Program-made: the position numbers and the translations under genes
NCBI GenBank assembly: GCA_036984305.1
Contig: BQWY01000001.1
Coordinates: forward strand, 3,307,501-3,371,500
Direction: 5' to 3'
DNA from: Nitrospira sp.
Lineage (GTDB): Bacteria > Nitrospirota > Nitrospiria > Nitrospirales > Nitrospiraceae
DNA length: 64,000 nucleotides
The notes under the pieces: generated by a model
The model's database searches: none
Told to the model about the DNA's origin: nothing
Seen by the model: the letters and a program-made list of their open reading frames with translations, nothing else
Shown here: positions 38,830-42,239 of the stretch, in pieces
How the letters are laid out: each line of letters begins with the position of its first letter
Position numbering within the stretch: position 1 is the first letter of the stretch

Positions 38830-40101
38830 TTACGAAGGGTGTGGCATGTCACACTCGCGCAGCCGTCGCTCGAGGAATCGCCGCTCTGGTTCCTGCCGCG
38901 TCAGGTGGAGCGCTCGTAGGTAGGAGGCGCGCGCATCGGCCTGACGGCCGAGCCGGCGGCAAAGATCCGCCCGCGCCGCGTGGGCCAAATGGTAACCCTC
39001 CAGCTCTCCGGTGCCGAGCAATCGTTCGACGAGTTCCAACCCGGAAGACGGCCCGTCTCTCATCGCGACGGCGACCGCACGATTCAATTCCACCACCGGA
39101 GATGGCTCGGCCTGTAGCAGCAGGTCATACAAGCCGACGATCCTCCCCCAATCCGTGGCTGCCGCAGTCGCCGCCTGCGCGTGCACGGAAGCGATCGCCG
39201 CTTGAAGCGTGTAGACTCCGACGGAGGTGGCCGCCAACGCTTGGGCGACGAGCGCAGTCCCTTCCGTCATCTGGTCTCGATTCCACAGGGACCGGTCTTG
39301 ATCTTCCAAGAGGACGACATCTCCCGCTGGAGAAGTCCGGGCAATCCGCCTTGAGTCCTGCAGAAGCATCAACCCCAGCAGCCCGAGCGTCTCCGCATCG
39401 GAAAGGAGTTCGACCAGTACTCGCCCAAGCCGAATCGCTTCGCTCGACAATTCATGTCGAGTCATGGCGTCCCCTGCGGACGCCGAATACCCCTCGTTAA
39501 ACACCAGGTAGACGACCCGAAGGACCGCCTCCATCCGCCCGGGAAGGTCCCGATGATCCGGGACCTCATAGGGAATCCGAGCATCGCGAATCTTGGCTTT
39601 GGCCCGCACAATTCGCTGGGCAATCGTCGCGGGCTTGGTCAGAAACGCATGTCCGATTTCCTCGGTCGTCAAACCACAGACTTCTCGAAGCGTCATGGCA
39701 ATCTGCGCCTCCGGCGCCAAGGCGGGGTGGCAGCACGTGAAAATCAACCGCAACCGGTCGTCATGGACGGCACCCTCGTCCATGGATTGCTCATCCGTCG
39801 GCTCTTCGGTCGTCTCCAGATGCCTTTCCACGTCGTGCAGCGACGCATGCTGACGCGCACGGCGCCGTAAGTTGTCGATCGCCTTGAACCGTCCCGTGGA
39901 AATCAGCCATGCCCGGGGATTGCTCGGGATGCCGTCTCGCCCCCATTGTTCCACCGCAACTGCGAACGCATCGTGCACGGCCTCTTCCGCCATGTCGAAA
40001 TCTCCCAAAAGGCGGATGAGTGTGGCCAGCACATGCCTCGACTCACTTCGGTAGAGTGTGTCGACCGCTTGCTGAATTGAGCCGACCCGGTCCTCGATCA
40101 T
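38830..40101 (-). CDS. ECF sigma factor with C-terminal TPR-like domain (ECF42 type)
   Basis: A 423-residue sigma-70-type factor. Residues 1-170 are the ECF core: region 2 (DFDMAEEAVHDAFAVAVEQW) and region 4 (LTTEEIGHAFLTKPATIAQR). Residues about 180-420 are an extended helical C-terminal domain with TPR-like pairs, as in ECF42 sigma factors, where it has been reported to be needed for activity and no anti-sigma gene exists. ECF42 genes are typically next to DGPF/YCII genes, as here (35872, 36465, VOC 38288). ATG at 40101 with GGGAGG upstream. The signal it responds to is unknown. Confidence 0.92.
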   Translation of the reverse strand: MIEDRVGSIQQAVDTLYRSESRHVLATLIRLLGDFDMAEEAVHDAFAVAVEQWGRDGIPSNPRAWLISTGRFKAIDNLRRRARQHASLHDVERHLETTEEPTDEQSMDEGAVHDDRLRLIFTCCHPALAPEAQIAMTLREVCGLTTEEIGHAFLTKPATIAQRIVRAKAKIRDARIPYEVPDHRDLPGRMEAVLRVVYLVFNEGYSASAGDAMTRHELSSEAIRLGRVLVELLSDAETLGLLGLMLLQDSRRIARTSPAGDVVLLEDQDRSLWNRDQMTEGTALVAQALAATSVGVYTLQAAIASVHAQAATAAATDWGRIVGLYDLLLQAEPSPVVELNRAVAVAMRDGPSSGLELVERLLGTGELEGYHLAHAARADLCRRLGRQADARASYLRALHLTRQEPERRFLERRLRECDMPHPS

Positions 40102-40338
40102 GGTTGATGTTCCTCCCTGCCCGGCCTGCTTTTCGGAACCAGCTTTCACCCCGATCGATCCCTGCCCTTCGCGCGTCCTTCCGCGAACCGGTTATTGCAA
40201 GACCTCGGCTACGTTCAGTGGATATGAGCCCTTCGGCCCCGTTCCGCTGTCCCAGTGGATCTTCGTATTGCCATGCTCGTAGTGTCAACAGAGGATCTAC
40301 CCCCGACCAATGCCCGCCCATGCAGGGACGTAGGATAA

Positions 40339-40687
40339 ACTAGAACCTATCTTAAAATCGTTTTCGGGGAGCCTGGCGCAGTCGGGTTAGGCTCCGAGGG
40401 GGACAATCTTTCGAGCGGGTTGTCCCCGCCCACGTTATTCCCTCAAACGGCTGGAGGGGATGAGCCCGCTCGCCTTCGCCATGGCGGGCGCCGATCGTGA
40501 CGGGCCAGATGGGCTGCTGGTCGCCGATCCGACGATCTGCCGGAGGCGATCAGCCAATCCAAGGACTCGTGCTGGCGATCGGGGCATCACCGCATCATGC
40601 CGAGGCTGGCGCGGCTCGCCCCTCGCCAGCCGTCCGTGTTTAAGAGCGCACTCCGTTGACTCGAGCGATTTTGAGATAGGTTCTAGT
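40339..40687. mobile_element. MITE-like element with 22-bp terminal inverted repeats
   Basis: Arms 40339-40360 (ACTAGAACCTATCTTAAAAT and two more) and 40666-40687 are inverted repeats with one mismatch over 22 bp. CTAG at the ends could be a target duplication, as in IS5-like elements. The 349-bp interior has no transposase and two perfect hairpins (40368-40374 with 40389-40395; 40399-40406 with 40420-40427), so the element looks non-autonomous. It sits between the ECF sigma gene and the ndh gene. Confidence 0.65.
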
Positions 40688-40901
40688 ATCCGGATCCCTG
40701 CGACCGTCTCACGTCTCTCAAGGTAGACAACGGCATGCGATTCTCCGCAAATCCGGCTCCCTGCCCCCAGCGAGCGAGTGAACCGTCACGTACAGCCATA
40801 CCGCCAGGGACCAACGGGTCATCGACCTCATGCTCACAGCTGCAACTTGGACGGTTCTCTGCATGTTGAAGACATGCTCCAAAACTGGCAATCTCACTAT
40901 C

Positions 40902-42239
40902 ATGATCCCCAAAGGGGCGAGCACTATTGTTGGAACCGATGGCAACACCTTGCCGCACGTCGTCATCGTCGGTGGCGGCTTTGGTGGTCTGGTGACCGCA
41001 CTGTCGCTTCGGCACGCCCCGGTTCGCATTACCTTGATCGACCGCCACAACCATCATTTGTTTCAGCCGCTCCTCTATCAGGTGGCAACCGCCGCTTTGT
41101 CTCCCTCGCAAATCGCCGCCCCCATTCGACACGTCCTTGCCACGCAGGCCAATTGCACGGTCTGGATGGCTGAGGTGCAACGGATCGATGCGGCGCGTCG
41201 GAGGGTCGTGTTGGCCGACAGCACCGTGAACTATGACTACCTCGTCCTGGCCGCGGGCGCCACTCACTCCTACTTTGGACACGAGGAGTGGAGCCGTCAC
41301 GCTCCAGGCCTGAAAACCGTTGAAGATGCCATCCAGATCCGTCAACGACTCCTGCTCGCGTTCGAGCGCGCGGAACGCCTGTGTACCGACAAGGAACAGC
41401 AACGTGGTTTGACATTCGTCATCATCGGTGGCGGCCCGACGGGCGTGGAATTGGCCGGCGCCATCAGCGAAATCGCCCTCCGCACGGTACGCCGGGACTT
41501 CAGGCACCTCCAACCAGCCGACACGCACGTCCTCCTGGTGGAGGCATCGGATCGGCTCCTGGCCGGCTTTCCGGAAAAGTTGGCACGCCGGGCCGAGCGA
41601 GACTTGGCAGATTTGGGCGTCGTCGTGCGTTTGAACAGCCGCGTGACGGGCATCGGTGAGGACGCGGTCCGGATCCATACCTCAGGGGGAGAGGAAACCA
41701 TTGCCACGCGCAACGTGTTCTGGGCCGCAGGAGTCAAGGCGTCTCCGCTCGGTGCGACGTTGGGAGTGCCGATGGACCGATTAGGGCACGTGCATGTGAA
41801 TGCCGACTTGTCTGTCCCTGGCCACCCGGAGATCTTCGTGGTGGGCGATTTGGCGCATGCGAAGGACGAACGGACCGGCGAGCCGGTCCCAGCACTTGCC
41901 CCCGCCGCGCTACAGATGGGAAAGCATGTCGCAAGAATTATCGCGGCCGGCACCGAACGGACTGGAGGTCGTGCCAAAGCACGGCCCCGCTTTCACTATC
42001 ACGATCGCGGACTGTTGGCGGCGATCGGACGCAGGAAAGCCGTTGCCTCGGTAGGACCGTTTCAGTTCGCCGGGCTCCTCGCCTGGCTGGTATGGTGCCT
42101 GGTCCACATTTTCTTTCTGATTACCTTCCGCCAGAAGGTTCTTGTCATGATCGAGTGGGTCTGGTCCTACCTCACGTTCACGGGCGGTGCGCGATTGATC
42201 AACGGTACGTCGACCACCAATGAGAAGCCTTCCGGTTAG
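40902..42239 (+). CDS. ndh: Type II NADH:quinone dehydrogenase (NDH-2)
   Basis: About 445 residues. A membrane-associated FAD enzyme that passes electrons from NADH to quinone without pumping protons. Rossmann motifs: VVIVGGGFGGLVTALSL (FAD) and FVIIGGGPTGVELAGAISEI (NADH). DRHNHHLFQPLLYQVAT, VFWAAGVKASPLG and FVVGDLAH are typical. The C terminus has hydrophobic helices (FAGLLAWLVWCLVHIFFLIT) for membrane binding. Start uncertain: ATG at 40902, 40863 and 40830 lie in frame, none with a good ribosome site; the conserved start region begins soon after 40902. The MITE is just upstream and may affect its promoter. Confidence 0.92.
   Translation: MIPKGASTIVGTDGNTLPHVVIVGGGFGGLVTALSLRHAPVRITLIDRHNHHLFQPLLYQVATAALSPSQIAAPIRHVLATQANCTVWMAEVQRIDAARRRVVLADSTVNYDYLVLAAGATHSYFGHEEWSRHAPGLKTVEDAIQIRQRLLLAFERAERLCTDKEQQRGLTFVIIGGGPTGVELAGAISEIALRTVRRDFRHLQPADTHVLLVEASDRLLAGFPEKLARRAERDLADLGVVVRLNSRVTGIGEDAVRIHTSGGEETIATRNVFWAAGVKASPLGATLGVPMDRLGHVHVNADLSVPGHPEIFVVGDLAHAKDERTGEPVPALAPAALQMGKHVARIIAAGTERTGGRAKARPRFHYHDRGLLAAIGRRKAVASVGPFQFAGLLAWLVWCLVHIFFLITFRQKVLVMIEWVWSYLTFTGGARLINGTSTTNEKPSG

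Follow-up and report, generated by a model that had tools for sequence, protein, structure and literature searches.

The window analysed here is a stretch of 64,000 nucleotides (G000:C1:3307501–3371500, G000 being the genome that holds the element described below) from a member of Nitrospira, whose relatives drive nitrite oxidation. It contains a 349-bp element between two divergent genes, which were assigned by domain search. On one side lies the gene of an ECF-type sigma factor (positions 38830–40149, minus strand; Sigma70_r2, Sigma70_r4_2 and DUF6596), directed away from the element, and on the other that of an NDH-2-like, NADH dehydrogenase-like flavoprotein (40830–42239, plus strand; Pyr_redox_2 and NDH2_C), whose actual start may be located further 3′. 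This is the setting given in the original prediction, which had placed the element between a sigma gene and ndh. A simple scan of positions 40100–41000 returned no sigma-70-like promoter, with 0.2 expected.

The element is bounded by arms of 22 nt at 40339–40360 (plus strand) and 40666–40687 (minus strand), just where they had been predicted. The arms are 95% complementary, with one mismatch, and 305 nt lie between them. The left arm comprises the terminal inverted repeat and the CTA target bases (A-CTA-GAACCTATCTTAAAATCG), and the same end is present on an IS5-type insertion sequence (IS) of the relative G012; the right arm, likewise with target bases, was recognised by arm pairing and an end-pattern scan. 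An 18-mer of the end, with up to three mismatches allowed, occurs twice in the window, both times at the element (0.01 occurrences expected; 0 of 100 shuffled sequences contained two). Folding of the 349 nt yielded −192 kcal/mol (z = −7.7), which was equalled by none of 100 shuffles. Chance or artefact was rejected as an account of the window element on the basis of the arms, the 18-mer shuffles and the fold z-score.

Both internal hairpins noted earlier are present in the minimum-energy fold. The first spans 40368–40395 (plus strand; stem of 10 pairs) and the second, H1, 40399–40427 (plus strand; stem of 11 pairs), with AGCG in its loop region and a pyrimidine-rich tract behind it. They are followed at 40449–40631 (plus strand) by a structured core, which was identified by covariation and by a match to the covariance model R1 (G000:C1:3347949–3348131, 176.3 bits) as one copy of a family-wide element of ~180 nt. 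As predicted, the element lacks a transposase ORF; its only mechanically called ORF, of 88 aa, overlaps the right end.

The CTAG termini of the original prediction hold for the left end, which reads CTAG in all five intact copies of relatives, but not throughout for the right end, which reads CTAG, CTAA, CTAC, CTAA and CTAA in the same copies; the ‘CTAG’ terminus is partly target sequence. Based on the alignment of copies and on these five with the same ends, the MITE proper, exclusive of target bases, would extend from 40343 to 40683. As read from the sequences, it would run 5′-GAACC…GGTT(C)-3′ within a CTA target, of which TA or CTA would be duplicated. Either duplication is compatible with the five copies of relatives, and the target itself is almost palindromic.

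Copies of the MITE and an IS with the same ends

A search of G000 gave 27 BLAST matches to the element at 24 loci, pieces of one copy being counted once. The original prediction had named the lack of any other copy and of any empty site as what would speak against it; because other copies exist, this objection does not arise. No empty site was seen; the relatives covered, namely all 41 entries listed for the element search and those shown for the family survey, include no genome of the same genus. One copy is 94% identical to the window element and the others 69–78%, except that one of the 24 loci is a solitary 28-bp end (93%). All copies have the same ends, whereas their flanks are unrelated. 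Both neighbours could be called for 19 of the copies L001–L020: convergent genes flank ten of them, and the window copy is the sole one flanked by a divergent pair. Since it is alone among the 19 in this position, an effect of the window copy on ndh, as suggested earlier, is possible. No match to the element was found by blastn at E 1e-5 in a plasmid or a phage collection.

Two MITE copies about 85 kb apart (L017/L042 and L019/L041) carry a shared replacement of internal sequence whose left boundary coincides, inside the MITE ends and with differing outer flanks. As two distant copies share it, the MITE unit appears to have transposed whole after the change. In both, part of the core is swapped for the same GC-rich segment of ~140 bp with its own hairpins (L041, G000:C1:3103032–3103431; L042, 3018200–3018595), and a third copy, L018, has the right part of this segment only. 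The ~140-bp replacement could define a second-generation subfamily or be another repeat that was inserted. Two further copies, L006 and L007 (G000:C1:3664248 and 3653612), are identical and separated by ~10 kb; their near flanks agree as well, which resembles a duplication more than two insertions.

An end-pattern search of G012 revealed two end pairs, 843 and 840 bp apart, with the same ends as the MITE. The 843-bp element, to which the transposase assignment applies, encodes an IS5-family transposase of 257 aa (NF033580 at 217 bits, cut-off 110; PF13340; PF01609). The predicted IS with these ends thus exists in a relative but was not found in G000, where a search for the G012 transposase at E ≤ 0.001, run without a positive control and hence weak, returned no relative of it. 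Ends of this IS5 type also bound short elements in G002 (L075 and L076; 190 and 167 bp) and G011 (L077; 167 bp). By eye, the 190-bp element looks like the IS with its middle deleted; G002 yielded no match to the core.

Many copies, ends common to an IS5-family IS of a relative and the lack of an internal transposase support the window element as an IS5-type MITE, apparently present in G000 without its helper transposase. Like known IS5-family IS and MITEs, it shares its ends with an IS whose transposase fits the NCBIfam IS5 model, and it is short, multicopy and devoid of a transposase. Unlike them, it bears a structured passenger that is found family-wide, and a G012-type transposase was not found in its genome. 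The earlier reading as a non-autonomous IS5-like element therefore stands as far as copies and ends are concerned, but missed that the interior is a structured element conserved outside any MITE. A partial parallel is offered by the Tn3-derived miniature elements (TIMEs), described in an excerpt of PMC4133298 as non-autonomous and able to form mosaic mobile units. The window MITE is likewise non-autonomous; its ends are of IS5 type, in contrast to the Tn3 ends of TIMEs.

A structured core within one family

Relatives match positions 107–294 of the element query without the MITE ends. R1, which was built from 24 cores, 16 of them of G000 origin, finds matches in 95 of the family's 175 genomes and in 19 of its 22 genera; with 15 candidates scored per genome, copy counts from this survey are lower bounds. 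When 150 candidates were scored, R1 gave 28 matches in G190, 22 in G000, 17 in G019, 16 in G011, 14 in G012, three in G181, two each in G140 and G131, one each in G139 and G064, and none in G002, G014, G047, G044 and G058, i.e. five of the 15 genomes. A broader model, R2, found one match in G044, where R1 had given none. In a phylum sample of 395 genomes, surveyed with six candidates scored per genome and strict filters, R2 matched 79, namely G000 and 78 genomes of the same family, and none outside the family. A DNA pattern scan returned 12 loci, 11 of them titled Nitrospira, Nitrospirae, Nitrospirota or Nitrospiraceae; judging from such contig titles, the family is taken to be the Nitrospiraceae. 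R2 matched eight of the ten that were scored, the exceptions being L189 and L196 (L188 and L193 were left out of the scoring). The twelfth locus, L192 (SYOC01000366.1), is a core on a contig titled as a Proteobacteria MAG, by mis-binning or transfer.

Within G000, 21 of the 22 cores are at MITE loci, and the remaining one (G000:C1:623155–623335) lies 10 nt past the uvrA stop. In G190, cores form clusters (L121, L178 and neighbours) at a spacing of 0.6–3 kb with small genes between them, one of which looks, by eye, like a CopG/BrnA-type antitoxin gene.

Alignment of 96 cores (94 distinct) revealed a structure of 42 pairs, with 92.6% of cells paired versus 79.7% after shuffling. Thirty-six of the 42 pairs are altered on both sides, in 458 cells versus 127.8 in shuffled alignments and at most 82 in slid versions; covariation amounts to 0.351, versus 0.134 for shuffled and 0.030–0.048 for slid alignments, figures that lean toward the structure, which was itself derived from an alignment fitted to R1. 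A check independent of this fit came from five flanking positions beyond the model, where 276 of 425 cells in 85 copies are Watson–Crick pairs (shuffled mean 175, maximum 198 in 500). The ends of the core pair as GGNTG/CANCC, with compensating variation. Two cores are on average 0.60 identical, the lowest value among 3000 sampled pairs being 0.44, and conservation reaches 85% or more in 12 unpaired columns. The weak opposite-strand row L122 was kept for covariation and for R2, and dropped for column conservation, the tree and the strand count described below. Outside the MITE, H1 and the pyrimidine tract precede many copies of the core, not all, in the arrangement seen within the MITE.

Rfam 15 gave no match at the gathering threshold in the window, and at E up to 10 gave four matches in six loci, none covering a core; a known RNA family was rejected on these grounds. 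A literature search returned no description of the ~180-nt element. The ~180-nt interior of the MITE is neither filler nor an IS remnant.

Cores beside stop codons

Outside the MITE, cores often lie directly behind genes. MITE copies were excluded from this and all other outside-MITE counts, including those of flanking pairs; ORFs were called mechanically, a convergent ORF was counted if it had at least 90 aa, and distances were taken from the 3′ end of the core. Among 85 copies, a convergent ORF stops between −15 and +65 in 46, versus six for the mirrored placement, and within 20 nt of the core in 31, versus two. The other 39 have no ORF stop nearby. A second batch of 22 copies (24 of 32 R2 matches listed, minus the repeats L190 and L198) gave 15 versus none for the wider interval and 13 versus none within 20 nt. 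A look by eye at the strands of the cores in G012 showed no clear bias with respect to replication.

The genes with adjacent stops, one example each, include uvrA, secA, panB and those for methylmalonyl-CoA mutase, glutaredoxin, an Rsm22-like protein, a succinyl-CoA-ligase-like protein and an M20 peptidase. Cores stand next to uvrA in 16 genomes from six genera, among them G000. The last 150 aa of the G000 UvrA were located by tblastn next to cores, with 82–91% identity, in another 15 genomes (G019, G181, G140, G131, G134, G011, G077, G005, G048, G053, G044, G066, G070, G078 and G190), and were absent at three core loci with other neighbours. Wherever it was read, the distance between uvrA stop and core is at most 20 nt, except in G078 (57 nt). 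At nine further uvrA loci, from genomes with few, no or other-gene matches, R2 at E < 0.001 matched three (G190, G015 and, weakly, G058) and did not match six. Behind the uvrA stop of G058, G139 and G047 (L233, L234 and L235), which lack the core there or have a weak one, stands another palindromic sequence, GCTCGC..AACGCGC ... GCAGTGAAGGAC. Similar motifs flank some cores, and this palindrome may represent another family of structures next to stops.

The history of the cores was read from a tree without support values, and the core set behind it was drawn from 84 chosen loci that include eight of the 21 G000 MITE cores. The eight MITE cores fall into a single clade. The copies beside the mutase gene group by locus, as do four uvrA copies including that of G000; the uvrA copies of G019/G011 and G181 are placed apart from the others. 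In seven orthologous pairs, gapped identities, read without a random baseline, are 0.72–0.84 for the core and 0.63–0.87 for the adjoining coding end; from −180 to −60 they are 0.57–0.60 in five pairs, and 0.78 and 0.89, about the level of the core, in two.

Origin and possible role of the core

We consider it likely that an IS5-type MITE captured a native element of the family once and then multiplied, and that the core is a 3′-end structure kept by selection. One capture followed by amplification fits the tree, in which the MITE cores form one clade.

Alternatively, the core could be mobile in its own right, as a REP-like or other single-strand DNA element that settles near stop codons, its retention at the same genes reflecting old insertions. 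We regard this as unlikely. REPs are short palindromes; like them, the core is intergenic, palindromic and multicopy and lies close to stops, but it differs in its length of ~180 nt, its conserved unpaired bases and its occurrence beside the same genes across genera. Mobility would agree with the number of copies, up to 28 in one genome and none in five of 15, and with the other palindromic sequence that replaces the core at some uvrA loci. However, several copies from different genera cluster according to their locus, and conservation of the core is similar to that of the adjoining coding DNA. Moreover, no Y1 transposase of the REP type (Y1_Tnp) was found in G000, G004 and G019, which hold 22, 7 and 17 cores, whereas the other five of the eight host genomes searched have one; a REP/RAYT origin was rejected on this ground.

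Integron attC sites are imperfect palindromes with conserved bulges that follow stop codons and carry an RYYYAAC/GTTRRRY pair at the base of the stem. The core shares the imperfect palindrome, the conserved bulges and the place behind a stop codon, but ends in GGNTG/CANCC, with no GTTRRRY/RYYYAAC pair visible by eye at its stem base, and the neighbours tested are housekeeping genes. Its stop-side placement also resembles that of part of the E. coli REPs, as far as the excerpted text of PMC12306157 describes them. A table in the same source gives counts of predicted short palindromic repeats for Nitrospira moscoviensis, which might include the core.

A further reading, to which we give a little less credence than to a mobile core, is that the plus strand of the core yields an RNA that acts in trans or as a catalyst, with H1 as a terminator-like border upstream. 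Odd pairs on the plus strand comprise 119 G-U versus 58 A-C (bootstrap share 0.60–0.75), counted after removal of identical rows, of one fixed U-G pair and of three weak opposite-strand rows; the G-U share is about equal in stop-adjacent (0.66) and other copies (0.69). At one position, 59 of the 93 cells with letters are U-G pairs. Because G-U outnumbers A-C, these counts suggest that the plus strand of the core folds, antisense to the gene beside whose stop it lies. This is only a hint, since the alignment model itself scores G-U as a pair and the bias arises partly through the fitting. The 12 conserved unpaired columns would also suit such an RNA, but promoter support is absent, Rfam has no match and there are many copies per genome. 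The same folding bias speaks, with the same reservation, against a simple role in the mRNA 3′-UTR.

A plain IS5-type MITE whose internal hairpins are merely its own palindromes, absent elsewhere, is very improbable: its ends, copy number and missing transposase are typical, but the core covaries strongly and is found free of the ends in many genomes, G000 itself having one such copy beside uvrA.

On the favoured reading of a single capture, a MITE with IS5-family ends would have taken up an older family element made of H1, the pyrimidine linker and the ~180-nt core, and an IS5-type transposase acting in trans would have spread this composite to the ~24 loci of G000. Outside the MITE, selection would keep the core, often immediately after the stops of conserved genes and on the side of convergent genes. 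There it may stand as a long bulged hairpin that protects the 3′ end of the mRNA; alternatively, it may tune ribosome release or, with H1 and the T-rich tail, halt opposing transcription. In our model, the core probably acts at the 3′ ends of genes in one of these three ways. Ribosomes are reported to stall at REPs that lie no more than 15 nt from a stop codon (PMC12306157, excerpted text), which may serve, by analogy, as a precedent for such a function, not as proof of it.

We tentatively suggest that the core could represent a new class of structured RNA behind stop codons, either a 3′-end regulator or one read from the opposite strand, so far known from one family of Nitrospira relatives and raised about twentyfold in copy number in G000 by an IS5-type MITE. 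With its strong covariation, its lack of an Rfam match and its tie to the stops of uvrA, secA and further core genes, the ~180-nt core is a candidate regulator that can be tested directly. The MITE copies offer a natural experiment, in which the same structure has been placed at ~20 new sites. If the reading is true, a transposon spreads a regulatory structure.
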